From Armatimonadota bacterium (GTDB taxonomy: Bacteria > Armatimonadota > UBA10988), in assembly GCA_016235455.1 (NCBI GenBank), contig JACRKZ010000031.1, forward strand, positions 1 through 64,000: a stretch of 64,000 nucleotides of DNA, written 5' to 3'. The position numbers and the translations under genes are program-made. Shown in pieces: positions 36,438-41,635 of the stretch (within the stretch, counting starts at the first letter, position 1; each line of letters begins with the position of its first letter). The notes beneath the pieces are model-generated. The model worked only from the letters and a program-made list of their open reading frames with translations, was not told where the DNA came from and did no database searches.

Positions 36438-36578
36438 CAGCGCCCGCGCGCGCGGCGGGTTCCCTTGAGGCTATTGTACGACGAGTCGGGCCACGCGTGA
36501 CACGACCGCGATAAGCCACCGTAACGCGCGGATGTTGTATAAGGAGTGCGGGGGGCAACGCTCCCGGCAGGTGGCACC

Positions 36579-37616
36579 ATGGACGACACGAAAGCCAGGC
36601 GCAAGCGACGCACCGTGTGGGTGGCGCTCGGCACCACTTTCCTGCTCATCACGCTCGGCGTGGGGCTGATCCGGCTGCTGGCCGGCGCGCTGGGCGGCGA
36701 CGAGACGAACTCGCGCGGCTTCGCTGGCGTCAGCGGCGACCGCATCGCCGTGATCAACGTCAACGGCGTCATCCGCGCCGGGGGCGAGAGCAGCCTGCTG
36801 GGCGGTGTCTCGCCGGGCGCCAGCGCGCTGCTCAAGCAGATCCGCTCTGCCGAGCGCAACCGCGATGTCAAGGCCGTCATCCTGCACATCAACTCGCCCG
36901 GCGGCGCCGCGGCCTCGTCGCAAGAGGTCTACGAGGCGGTCATGGCCGCGCGCCGCAAGAAGAAGTTCGTTGCCTCCATGGCCGATGTGGCCGCGTCCGG
37001 CGGCTACTACATCGCCAGCGCGTGTGACAGGATCGTGGCCAACCGCGCCTCGATGACCGGCAGCATCGGCGTCATCATTGCCAGCTACAACGTCTCGGGC
37101 CTCATGAAGCGCTACGACGTGACGGACACCACCATCACCAGCGGGCCCTTCAAGGCCACCGGCGCGCCCACGCGACCCTTCTCCGACGCCGATCGCACGC
37201 TGCTCCAGGGCCTGGTGAACGACACCTACGAGCAGTTCGTGGCCGACGTGGCCAAGGGTCGCGGCTGCGACGTGGCCAAGATCCGCAAGGTTGCCGACGG
37301 GCGCGTCATGACCGGTCGGCAGGCCAAGGCGGCCGGGCTGGTCGACGAGCTCGGCGGCTTCCAGCGCGCGGTGGAAGTGGCCCGCGATCTGGCCCGCCTG
37401 CCCCGGGGCCGGCAGCCCAACCTCTACTACATGGGCCGCACCTCCTTGGTCGACCAGCTGCTCGATAGCGAGACGCTCCTGCCCGGCCGCGGCGCCGCGC
37501 TGGAGCAGGTTCTGGCGCCGACACCCCTGTGGCTGCTGGCACCCGCGGCCCTGGCGCCCGCGGCTCTGGAGCCGACAGCGGCCACCCCGCCGGCGGCAAC
37601 GCCGCAGGCCCGCTGA
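36579..37616 (+). CDS. sppA: Signal peptide peptidase SppA, short form
   Basis: 345 residues with one N-terminal membrane helix (VWVALGTTFLLITLGVGLI). It is a serine-lysine protease that degrades leftover signal peptides in the inner membrane. The nucleophile is S140 in VAASGGYYIAS and the general base is K192 in SGPFKATG, the spacing expected of the Bacillus-type short form. The start ATG 36579 is preferred over ATG 36546 because the conserved N-terminal helix begins there. The C-terminus has an alanine/proline-rich extension. The stop overlaps the next gene's start by one base (TGATG). Confidence 0.94.
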   Translation: MDDTKARRKRRTVWVALGTTFLLITLGVGLIRLLAGALGGDETNSRGFAGVSGDRIAVINVNGVIRAGGESSLLGGVSPGASALLKQIRSAERNRDVKAVILHINSPGGAAASSQEVYEAVMAARRKKKFVASMADVAASGGYYIASACDRIVANRASMTGSIGVIIASYNVSGLMKRYDVTDTTITSGPFKATGAPTRPFSDADRTLLQGLVNDTYEQFVADVAKGRGCDVAKIRKVADGRVMTGRQAKAAGLVDELGGFQRAVEVARDLARLPRGRQPNLYYMGRTSLVDQLLDSETLLPGRGAALEQVLAPTPLWLLAPAALAPAALEPTAATPPAATPQAR

Positions 37617-39748
37617 TGGCTGGGCGCTGGTTGCTGGTCGATCCCGAGAGCATTCTGCGCTGGGCCTGGCATGCGCTGTCGCCGCGGCGCGCCCGCGATG
37701 GCCAGTCAACCCACGCGGTCCACGGTCTGGCCGCCACACTGTTGCGCGCGCTGGACCAGGAGCGCCCGGCGCGCATCGTCGCTGCCTGGGAGTCGGCGCC
37801 ACCCACCTGGCGCCACGAGCAGTTTCCCGCCTACCAGGCCGAGCGCGAGCCCGACGACGTCGATCTGATCGGTCAACGCGCGCTGGGCGAGGCCTTCGTC
37901 GCGGCGTTGGGCTGGCCCAGCGTACGCGTCGACGGCCATGCCGCGCGGGACGTGCTGGCCACGCTGGCCGCGCAGGCCGGCGACGACGAGGTGCTGCTGC
38001 TCAGCGCCGACCGTGACCTGTGCCAACTGGTCTCGCCCAGCGTGACACTGCTCGCGCCGCGGCCGGGCGATCTGGAGCGCTTCGACGAGCCCGCCGTGGC
38101 CGCGCGCTACGGCGTGCCGCCCGTGCTGTGGGCCGAGCTGCGCGCGCTCGACGGCGACCACGGCAACAGCCTGCCCGGCGTGCCGGGCATCGGCGAAAAG
38201 ACCGCCGCCGGCTGGTTGCTGCGTCACCGCGGGCTGGAGGGCGTGCTGGCCGCCGATCTGGGGGGCAAGCGGGGCGCCGAAACCAAGGCCCGGGCCGACC
38301 AGGTGCGCGCGGTGCTGGCGGTGGTGCGGCTGCGCACCGACTCGCCGGTGGCGGTGCCGGCCGGCGGCTGGCCACGTCCCACTCCGCAGGCCGAGCGACT
38401 GAGCGCGCTGCTGACCGAGTGGGACTTCCACGACCTGCTGCGGCGCCTGACCCCGCGCCTGTTGGCGCCGCCGGGCGAGATTGCCTACCGCCGCGCCGCC
38501 GACGAGGCGACCGTGGCCCTGGTGGTGGACGCGCTGGCCGCCGGCCGAGTGGCTGGTCTGGCGGCGGGTGAGAAGGGCCTGGCGGTGAGTCCGGCGCGGG
38601 CCGATGCCTGGTACGTGCCGGCCGACCTGGCGGCGCCCGTGGTGTCGGCCTTGGCCGAGGGCCGGGCGCGGCTGGTCGCCCATGATCTGACGCGCCTGCC
38701 GGCCTGGCTGGCCCGCGCGCTGCCGGCGGCGGTGGGCGACAGCCACCTGGCCCTGTGGCTGCTGGACCCCGAGCGACCGCCTATGGGCGTGGTCGAGGCC
38801 GGCCGACGCTGGCTGGGTCTGGTGGCCGAGTCGCCCGACGATCTGCCGCGCGAGCCGGCCGCGCTGTGCCTGGAGGCCGACTGGACGCGGCGCCTGGAGC
38901 CCACGCTGCGCGCCGAGCTCGAGGACCGTCACATGGGCCGCCTCTACCGCACCAGCGAGTTGGCCACCGTGCAGGCCGTCGCGGCGCTGGCCGCCCGCGG
39001 CGCGCACACGGCGGCGGGGCGCGAGCCGCTGGCCCTGCGCCGGGCGGCGGGCAGCTCCGGCCGCTGGGAGGTGGCGCGGCCGGCCCGCGAGCACCTGGCC
39101 GCCGAACTGCTGCCCGACGAGGGCGGCGTGCTGCTGAGCGCCGTCTACCGCGACCCGGCCATTTGGCTGGTGGCCGGGCTCAGCGGCGACCGCGAACTGG
39201 CCACGGCCCTGGCGGCGGCGCCCAGCGCGGCGGTGGCCGTGGCGGCGGCGCTGTGGGGCCGGGCGCCCGACAGCGTGACCCCCGAGCAGCGTCAGCGCGC
39301 GGCGGCCCTCAACGGCGCCGCGGCGCGCGGTGGCGACCTGGCCTGGTTGCGCCGCCGGCTGGGAGTCGACGAGGCCGAGGCCCGCGCGCTGGGCCGGGCC
39401 TGGGAGGCCCGGTTCCCGGTCAGCGCGCGCTGGCGAGCCGACATTGCTGCCTCGGCCCGGCGCGAAGGCTGGTTGACGACGCTCGCCGGCCGGCGCTTGC
39501 GGGCCGGCTCGACTGAGCGCGTGGCGCTGGCCCGCCAGGTCGCCGAGGCAGCCCTGGGCGATCTGCTCAACCGCGCTCTGCAGGCCTGTCGCGGCCACGC
39601 CGTGCTGCCCCTGCGCCATGGCTGGCTGGTCGGCGTGGCGGCGGGCGAGGCGGCCGCCGCGGCGGCCGAGATCGAGCGCGCCTGGCCGACGCTGGCGGGG
39701 CTCGATGTGAGCCAGCCGGTGACGGTTTCGGCGCCGGATTCACCCTGA
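37616..39748 (+). CDS. DNA polymerase I homologue with degenerate exonuclease and polymerase active sites
   Basis: 710 residues, alanine/arginine-rich, collinear with PolA from end to end but about 200 residues shorter than E. coli PolA. Exonuclease part: D9, D132, D134 and D181 are kept (LLVDPE, LLLSADRDLCQLV, LDGDHGNSLPGVPGIGEKTA). E59, A109, R111 and N184 stand where E. coli has D63, E113, D115 and D188. Polymerase part: motif A reads LLSAVYRDPAIWLVAGLSGD, with V510 in place of the catalytic aspartate. Motif B has R559 but A563 and G567 where K758 and F762 should be. Motif C is R-H-G-W in place of V-H-D-E. The reading frame is intact. It is translationally coupled to sppA. A non-enzymatic DNA-binding role or functional decay are both possible. 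Confidence 0.8.
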   Translation: MAGRWLLVDPESILRWAWHALSPRRARDGQSTHAVHGLAATLLRALDQERPARIVAAWESAPPTWRHEQFPAYQAEREPDDVDLIGQRALGEAFVAALGWPSVRVDGHAARDVLATLAAQAGDDEVLLLSADRDLCQLVSPSVTLLAPRPGDLERFDEPAVAARYGVPPVLWAELRALDGDHGNSLPGVPGIGEKTAAGWLLRHRGLEGVLAADLGGKRGAETKARADQVRAVLAVVRLRTDSPVAVPAGGWPRPTPQAERLSALLTEWDFHDLLRRLTPRLLAPPGEIAYRRAADEATVALVVDALAAGRVAGLAAGEKGLAVSPARADAWYVPADLAAPVVSALAEGRARLVAHDLTRLPAWLARALPAAVGDSHLALWLLDPERPPMGVVEAGRRWLGLVAESPDDLPREPAALCLEADWTRRLEPTLRAELEDRHMGRLYRTSELATVQAVAALAARGAHTAAGREPLALRRAAGSSGRWEVARPAREHLAAELLPDEGGVLLSAVYRDPAIWLVAGLSGDRELATALAAAPSAAVAVAAALWGRAPDSVTPEQRQRAAALNGAAARGGDLAWLRRRLGVDEAEARALGRAWEARFPVSARWRADIAASARREGWLTTLAGRRLRAGSTERVALARQVAEAALGDLLNRALQACRGHAVLPLRHGWLVGVAAGEAAAAAAEIERAWPTLAGLDVSQPVTVSAPDSP

Positions 39749-39793
39749 GCGACCGACGCCCGGCGGCGAGTCGCCATGGGCTTGCAGAGATTG

Positions 39794-39822
39794 TTGTCAT
39801 TGCGGCGCGCCTCTGCTATACT
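39794..39822 (+). promoter_or_regulatory. Sigma-70-type promoter of rpsA
   Basis: TTGTCA (5 of 6) and TATACT (5 of 6) are separated by exactly 17 bases. Transcription would start near 39829, giving an untranslated leader of about 160 bases before the S1 start codon. This is the best promoter in the window. Confidence 0.85.
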
Positions 39823-39851
39823 CGGCGCCACGCGGATGGGCCACCAGTGGA

Positions 39852-39948
39852 CTACCAGAACATGCTCGTACGGCGGAAACCCGCCACCCTCGCCTGACAC
39901 CACGCCTCTCAGGGGTTGCTGTCGCTATGAGGGTCACGAGTCTGGTAG
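39852..39948 (+). ncRNA. Structured 5' leader of rpsA (candidate autoregulatory RNA)
   Basis: Four nested or adjacent complementary segments lie between promoter and gene. P1 pairs CTACCAGA (39852-39859) with TCTGGTAG (39941-39948). P2 pairs GGCGG (39872-39876) with CCGCC (39881-39885). P3 pairs ACCCTC (39886-39891) with GAGGGT (39929-39934), and P4 inside it pairs CCTGA (39893-39897) with TCAGG (39909-39913). Together they form a three-way junction closed by P1. S1 represses its own mRNA through the leader in E. coli, so a similar role is plausible here. The pairing was found by eye. Confidence 0.45.
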
Positions 39949-39991
39949 AAAGCGGAATCAAGCTGCCGCAACATCGGACAGGTGAGCAGGC

Positions 39992-41635
39992 ATGAGCGAA
40001 GAGCGTGACGATCGCGTCGAGACCGCGCAGAACGGCGATGCGTCGATGGAAGAGGCCATGGAATCCATGCCCAGCATGGATGAGCTGATGGCGAGCTACG
40101 AGGGTCCCGAACTCTCGACCGAGCTGCGTGAAGGTGATCTGGTGACGGGTACCGTCGTCCAGATCAACGACAACGGCGTGATGGTCGACGTGGGTACCAA
40201 GTCGGAAGGCTTGATCCCCAAGGGTGAGTTGGAGGCGATCCGCGACCACATCAAGCTCGGCGACCAGATCAAGGTCGTCGTAGTGCGCATGGACTCCGAA
40301 GACGTGGTGCTGAGCAAGCGCCAGGCGGATGTCGAAGCGGCGTGGGAACACATCGTCGACAAGCAGGACAGCGCCGAGATCCTCGAAGCCAAGGTGATTG
40401 ACGCGGTCAAGGGCGGTCTGCTGGTGGACCTGGGCCTCTACGGCCAAGGGTTCGTGCCCGCCTCGCATGTCAGCATCCGGCGACCTCGCAACCTCAACAA
40501 GTACATCGGCCAGACCCTGCAATTGCAGGTCATCGAGGTTGAGCGCAAGCGCCGCCGCGTGGTGCTCTCGCACCGCTTGGTGATGGAGCGCGAGCGCGAA
40601 GCCGAGCGCGATGTGACTCTGGGCAAGCTGCGCGAGGGCCAGGTCCGGCGCGGCGTGGTGCGTCGCATCACCGATTTTGGCGCCTTTGTCGACATCGGCG
40701 GCGTCGACGGCCTGCTGCACGTCAGCGAGCTGTCGTGGAAGCGTGTTGGCAGCCCGCAGGAAGAGCTGCGCGTCGGCGATCCGCTCGAGGTCATGGTCCT
40801 CAAGCTGAACGTGGACGAGGGGCGCATCTCCCTGGGCCGCCGCCAGTTGCTGGCCGACCCGTGGCGCGAGATTCCCAAGCTGTACCGCGAAGGCCAGACG
40901 GTCCGCGGTTCGGTCATCAAGTTCGTCTCCGGCGGCACCCGAGCCGTCGTCAAGCTGCCCGTCGGCCTCGAGGTCGTCGTGGAGCTGCCCGACGAGCTGC
41001 GGCCGGTGGCCGCCCCGAGCGTCGAAGAGGCGCCCGTGGCCGAGGCCGTCGAGGTCGTGGTGGAGCCGGCGGCAGCCCCTGAGGCTGTCGAAGGCGCCGA
41101 GGCCGTGGCGACGGAAGTCGTCGAACCGGTCGAGGGCGCCGAGGTCGAGGCTGCCGCGGTTGAGGCCGTGGTGGAAGTCGTGGCCGAAGCCGAAGTGGCT
41201 GTCGAAGTCGAGGCCGAACCCGAAGCCAAGGGCTTGGCCGTGGGCAGCGAAGTCGAGTTGCGCATCGAGCGCATCAGCCTCGGCGAGCGCGACCTGCAGG
41301 CCTCCGTGGCTGGTACGCGCGCCATTGGCGAGCGCGGCCCCGGCCGGCTCTCCGAAGGCGAGCGCGGGGCGGCCCGCGGTCCTCTGGCCCGCGGTCGCTA
41401 CAGCGACCGCCGCGAAGAGGAAGGCGACGCCAGCAACGAGCAGCGAGCGCCGCGTGAGCGCCGTGACCGCCGCCGCGAACGCGATGGCGACCGCGACCGC
41501 GAATCGATGCCGCTTGAGCACAGCACCACGGCGCCGGCGCGGCGTACGCTGGGCGACCTCATGGGCGACAAGCTGCGGTCGCTGTTCGACAGTGGCGAGG
41601 AATCGTCGGAAAAGGCGAGCGGCGAGGAGGAGTAA
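39992..41635 (+). CDS. rpsA: 30S ribosomal protein S1
   Basis: 547 residues. An S1 OB-fold repeat protein that helps the 30S subunit bind mRNA. Three clear S1 domains are present: about residues 47-112 (LREGDLVTGTVVQINDNGVM), 130-195 and 215-285 (RRGVVRRITDFGAFVDIGGV). A fourth begins at about 300 (YREGQTVRGSVIKFVSGGTR) but is interrupted by a roughly 78-residue valine/glutamate/alanine-rich stretch (338-415). The canonical closing strands (VGSEVELRIERISLGERD) follow at 416-433. The C-terminus is highly charged (RERRDRRRERDGDRDRES). Transcribed from its own promoter. Confidence 0.9.
   Translation: MSEERDDRVETAQNGDASMEEAMESMPSMDELMASYEGPELSTELREGDLVTGTVVQINDNGVMVDVGTKSEGLIPKGELEAIRDHIKLGDQIKVVVVRMDSEDVVLSKRQADVEAAWEHIVDKQDSAEILEAKVIDAVKGGLLVDLGLYGQGFVPASHVSIRRPRNLNKYIGQTLQLQVIEVERKRRRVVLSHRLVMEREREAERDVTLGKLREGQVRRGVVRRITDFGAFVDIGGVDGLLHVSELSWKRVGSPQEELRVGDPLEVMVLKLNVDEGRISLGRRQLLADPWREIPKLYREGQTVRGSVIKFVSGGTRAVVKLPVGLEVVVELPDELRPVAAPSVEEAPVAEAVEVVVEPAAAPEAVEGAEAVATEVVEPVEGAEVEAAAVEAVVEVVAEAEVAVEVEAEPEAKGLAVGSEVELRIERISLGERDLQASVAGTRAIGERGPGRLSEGERGAARGPLARGRYSDRREEEGDASNEQRAPRERRDRRRERDGDRDRESMPLEHSTTAPARRTLGDLMGDKLRSLFDSGEESSEKASGEEE

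Follow-up and report, generated by a model that had tools for sequence, protein, structure and literature searches.

A catalytically dead homologue of DNA polymerase I, open in frame, with an intact second Pol I elsewhere in an Armatimonadota genome

DNA polymerase I (Pol I) is nearly universal in bacteria. Why, then, would a bacterial genome carry a long, uninterrupted polA gene in which the catalytic residues have been replaced? The gene that raises this question lies in a 64,000-nucleotide stretch of an Armatimonadota genome (the whole stretch is here called the window). The frame of 710 codons described in an earlier note is borne out: it runs without interruption on the + strand from an ATG at 37616 to a stop at 39748. 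Its ATG overlaps the stop codon of sppA as TGATG, and the two genes are apparently translationally coupled. The features of the locus are as follows.

36546..37616, + strand: sppA (S49 signal peptide peptidase), the upstream neighbor
37616..39748, + strand: catalytically dead Pol I homologue (orthologue of type a polA), 710 aa
37616..38485, + strand: FEN-like 5'-nuclease domain, residues 1-290 (Pfam, residue alignment)
38486..39010, + strand: vestigial 3'-5' exonuclease-like domain, residues 291-465
39002..39034, + strand: thumb deletion site, around residues 463-473 (three adjoining in-frame gaps)
39011..39745, + strand: degenerate palm/fingers, residues 466-710 (motifs A, B, and C all changed)
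39992..41635, + strand: rpsA (ribosomal protein S1), the downstream neighbor and synteny anchor with genomes G002, G003, and G001

The homology of the protein to PolA is far beyond chance. Pfam identifies 5_3_exonuc_N (PF02739, 6.5e-33), 5_3_exonuc (PF01367, 9.2e-13), and, as a partial match covering profile positions 145-278 of 381, DNA_pol_A (PF00476, 7.7e-12); a PDB sequence search returns mycobacterial Pol I (3e-44) and Taq Pol I (1e-41). Alignment from end to end, as first described, is nevertheless too strong a claim, and the protein is not truly full length. The thumb is gone, removed at residues 463-473 by deletions of 25, 43, and 34 aa (~102 aa), and further deletions affect the palm and fingers, so that the polymerase domain typical of family A, with its thumb, palm, and fingers, is incomplete. 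An AlphaFold2 model (20-row alignment; mean pLDDT 83) is confident in the FEN domain and poor at the lost thumb, and in Foldseek it matches Taq Pol I, mycobacterial Pol I, and single FENs; because the alignment holds intact homologues, the model indicates fold compatibility only and is not independent evidence of folding.

Alignment with E. coli Pol I (E. coli numbering) places V510 at D705 of motif A, and A563, G567, and R571 at K758, F762, and Y766 of motif B, in agreement with the first three of these replacements as originally noticed. The H-G-W once read in motif C is one residue off (without gaps, H881-D882-E883 corresponds to R667-H668-G669), but both acidic residues are lost either way. 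The catalytic D705, K758, D882, and E883 have become V, A, H, and G, and the protein is predicted to be without a polymerase active site. Nor have fold motifs persisted in this half, as the earlier note had supposed: in addition to the loss of the thumb, conserved Pol I residues of the palm and fingers are kept no better than variable ones (35/94 versus 22/68, p=0.32), and the retention of hydrophobic class at changed core sites is nonsignificant (p=0.10).

The 5'-nuclease half shows a different pattern. The four changed acidic residues that the earlier note counted are confirmed (D63E, E113A, D115R, and D188N), and R20W and K78Q are added to them, while D13, R70, Y77, R81, D116, D138, D140, and D185 are kept. 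With roles of the two metal sites assigned after PMC3783174, Cat1 is broken (D63E, E113A, and D115R, plus K78Q and R20W), and the protein does not have the complete Cat1 (D13, D63, E113, D115, and D138) and arch lysine K78 expected of an active FEN. Cat2 is mostly kept (D140 and D185 retained, D188N), as is the H3TH DNA-binding motif with its GhG (GVPGIGEKTA). Flap cleavage by T5 FEN depends on Cat1, which also suffices for it, and the role of Cat2 is to bind the substrate; ExoIX, which is without Cat2 yet active, binds DNA via its H3TH region (PMC3783174). Across the domain of the window protein, retention is higher at conserved than at variable sites (41/59 versus 61/125, p=0.006), and changed core sites stay hydrophobic in 18 of 24 cases, compared with 5 of 24 at polar sites (p=0.0002). 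Loss fell more heavily on the catalytic residues than on the other conserved positions (5/8 versus 5/27, p=0.03 in a post hoc comparison; 4/7 versus 5/27, p=0.06 with a strict site set). Since Cat1 is broken, Cat2 mostly kept, and H3TH kept, binding without cutting would be the most economical function, if there is any.

It could be argued that only the polymerase is dead and that the FEN domain is an altered but real nuclease, cutting with D13, E63, D116, D138, D140, and D185. These six positions are all still acidic, and separate proteins can take on the nuclease and polymerase tasks of Pol I in B. subtilis (PMC10191290). We consider this improbable, however, as the core Cat1 residues E113 and D115, lost here (E113A, D115R), are kept in the other rows of our alignment that cover them, and K78Q alters a lysine that all prokaryotic FENs are said to share (PMC3783174). 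FenA of B. subtilis complements poorly when two Cat1 residues are changed (E114Q/D116N), whereas with D192N it does complement (PMC10191290). The vestigial 3'-5' exonuclease-like domain is catalytically dead already in the intact sister orthologues.

The suggestion that the true PolA lies elsewhere in the genome proved correct. The search for a second, active polA that the earlier note proposed, carried out here as a family search of the whole genome, recovers the window gene (46.7 bits) and, on contig C104, a 958-aa Pol I that is intact (474.7 bits). The latter, which we call type b, keeps the FEN, proofreading, and polymerase residues, and it is present also in a second genome of the same genus (G001), where the flanking genes match on both sides. 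In each of two sister genera (G002 and G003) there is only one Pol I, of a kind that we call type a, with polymerase and FEN metal residues intact and a dead 3'-5' exonuclease. The order polA-rpsA-propeller gene is common to the window and to both of these genomes; sppA lies upstream of the type a gene in G003 but not in G002. A 1185-aa frame in G002 was considered as a fusion and rejected, since its upstream part has low GC3 and is free of Pfam domains.

A quick maximum-likelihood tree built from 66 polymerase domains sets the window protein with G002, G003, and G004 and separates these four from the remaining 62 rows (SH-aLRT 96), although the end branch of the window protein is so long (~10 changes per column; median 0.2) that it is placed with caution. 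The other rows covering the columns keep D705, D882, and E883. Synteny and tree together identify the window gene as orthologous to the sole PolA, an intact one, of the two sister genera. Type b forms a separate clade (support 100) that spans five families of the phylum (loci L035, L037, L039, L041, and L043); the four type b genomes outside the window genus also have an intact type a Pol I. This distribution suggests an old paralogue or horizontal spread. Three genomes of the phylum that are 87-97% complete (G047, G105, and G140) gave no family A polymerase match, and in G135 one high-scoring Pol I match (G135:C159:5815-6942) is interrupted by a single TAA stop.

We propose that Pol I function probably passed to type b and that the old gene was released. 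In the same-genus genome G001, the old polA is absent beside rpsA, where other genes lie upstream and the rpsA promoter and leader align; the loss of the gene there is rated likely, and no higher, because G001 is 80% complete. The region upstream of rpsA is itself conserved between the window genome and G001 (39749-39991 and L078:2080-2374), with a TATACT-type promoter element and a leader (CACGCGGATGGGCCA..AGTGGAC.ACCAG) at which S1 leader regulation is possible.

When the polymerase half was searched against 291 genomes of the phylum, nothing came closer to it than ordinary intact Pol I. Weak additional matches to family A in genomes with several copies were considered as possible second cases of a dead Pol I, but the five that we read look phage-type and keep a motif A aspartate, four by pattern and one (G013:C86) reading LLDADYNAIEARI. 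Our analysis therefore knows the dead state from a single genome; this limits our claim more than anything else and makes dN/dS within the dead state unobtainable.

Such a singular gene could in principle be an artefact of assembly or binning, for example a chimeric or error-ridden contig, and the genome is a draft of 185 contigs. This seems very improbable: the gene sits inside a 132-kb contig in conserved synteny, each domain of its single open frame shows the G+C by codon position that is typical of coding sequence, and sequencing error does not produce coherent in-frame divergence.

A more serious alternative is that the gene is dying, that is, that after the takeover by type b the old polA entered relaxed, functionless decay and has by chance escaped stops and frameshifts at high G+C. 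We rate this somewhat below an even chance. The open frame alone is weak evidence against it, because the genome has 69% G+C and a 637-aa antisense ORF at 37706-39619 (-) overlaps the gene, so that any argument from the frame needs tests based on indels and neutral simulation. That antisense ORF is an example of the long spurious frames found in this genome. The window gene has accumulated ~20 lineage-specific indels, all in frame, with no stop and no frameshift, and it does not have the disabled frame of a pseudogene. In neutral simulations brought to the observed retention, the palm and fingers stayed free of stops with a probability of 0.04 at GC* 0.69 and in 0/100 runs at GC* 0.5, which argues against decay of the polymerase half; the corresponding probability for the FEN domain is 0.11-0.15.

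Amino-acid rates of the window lineage were compared with those of the sisters G002/G003 as products of branch length and omega. The ratio is ~1.0 (rpsA), 2.3 (propeller gene), 2.1 (vestigial 3'-exonuclease domain), 3.2 (FEN domain), and 5.6 (polymerase half); because dS is saturated, these are relative amino-acid rates only. The acceleration of the polymerase half over both neighboring genes favors decay, and that of the FEN domain over its sisters counts against a kept pseudoenzyme; the vestigial domain, evolving near the rate of the propeller gene, speaks against decay. All three domains reject omega=1 for the window branch (2dlnL of 40.1, 13.6, and 18.3), in tests that, owing to the same saturation, span the whole branch, including the time when the enzyme was active. 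The rise of GC1/GC2 to 0.83/0.58, from 0.79/0.51 in the G003 orthologue, is as drift to G+C-rich codons would produce, and the deleted thumb and erased conservation pattern of the palm and fingers likewise favor decay, whereas the pattern retained in the FEN domain does not. Frameshifts in relatives, named by the earlier note as a sign of simple decay, were not found; the same-genus genome instead appears to have lost the gene, and decay therefore stays a live alternative. Judged by its indels and retained sites, the gene is nevertheless not simple junk.

The explanation that we put forward, and to which we give even weight for and against, is that the original polA has been kept as a translated pseudoenzyme, in which a FEN domain that binds but does not cut is joined to a degenerate polymerase shell. 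The lineage's original polA would have been freed when a proofreading-type Pol I (type b) became the working Pol I of the genus, and would then have been kept in translated form. Its polymerase half would have lost the thumb and all catalytic residues, and its 5'-nuclease half the catalytic Cat1, with most of the substrate-binding Cat2 and H3TH remaining. The likeliest action of such a protein would be to bind 5'-flap or gapped DNA and leave it uncut, for example shielding or handing over repair or Okazaki intermediates. The sequences themselves show the orthology, the lost residues, the intact second Pol I, and the in-frame history of the gene; we infer its translation, its binding to DNA, and any biological role that it may have. 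The structural or regulatory DNA-binding role first suggested for it receives indirect support, mainly from the FEN domain, in which H3TH and most of Cat2 persist and Cat1 is broken.

The locus appears to catch the replacement of a Pol I in progress: the sister genera have the old Pol I only, the window genome has the new one and the dead old one, and the same-genus genome apparently has only the new. It could also serve to test whether a Pol I, once dead, can be recruited as a DNA-binding protein or just fades. Our literature search for a known inactive Pol I found none. For families X and Y, a survey of 3070 genomes reports forms whose polymerase sites are dead, and for Pol I it reports dead proofreading domains; its accessible part describes no Pol I in which the polymerase domain is dead (PMC12926913).

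Among known systems, the protein resembles the PolA1 group (E. coli Pol I and Taq Pol I) in its domain order (FEN, 3'-5' exonuclease-like, polymerase), in the orthology of its locus to the sole Pol I of the sister genera, and in its vestigial 3'-5' exonuclease, a condition that the same survey gives for about half of PolA1 (PMC12926913). It differs from that group in having neither polymerase active site nor thumb, in its broken Cat1, and in sharing its genome with another, intact Pol I. With the ExoIX/Xni-type flap endonucleases it has in common a FEN fold minus one of two metal sites; however, ExoIX is still active, with Cat1 in place and Cat2 lost (PMC3783174), whereas in the window protein it is Cat1 that is gone and Cat2 that mostly remains, and its FEN is part of a Pol I chain. 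As a polymerase homologue without catalytic residues beside active polymerases, it is comparable to ImuB/iPolY (family Y), part of PolX1, and archaeal PolB2, from which it is set apart by belonging to family A and by the fact that neither a partner protein nor a widespread group was seen here. More tentatively still than the readings of pseudoenzyme and decay, it may be a maintained, noncatalytic Pol I, an accessory that holds 5'-flap or gapped DNA and that arose after replacement as the family A counterpart of the ImuB-type inactive polymerases. Archaeal PolB2, also predicted to be inactive, was later found to work in translesion synthesis (PMC8764526).
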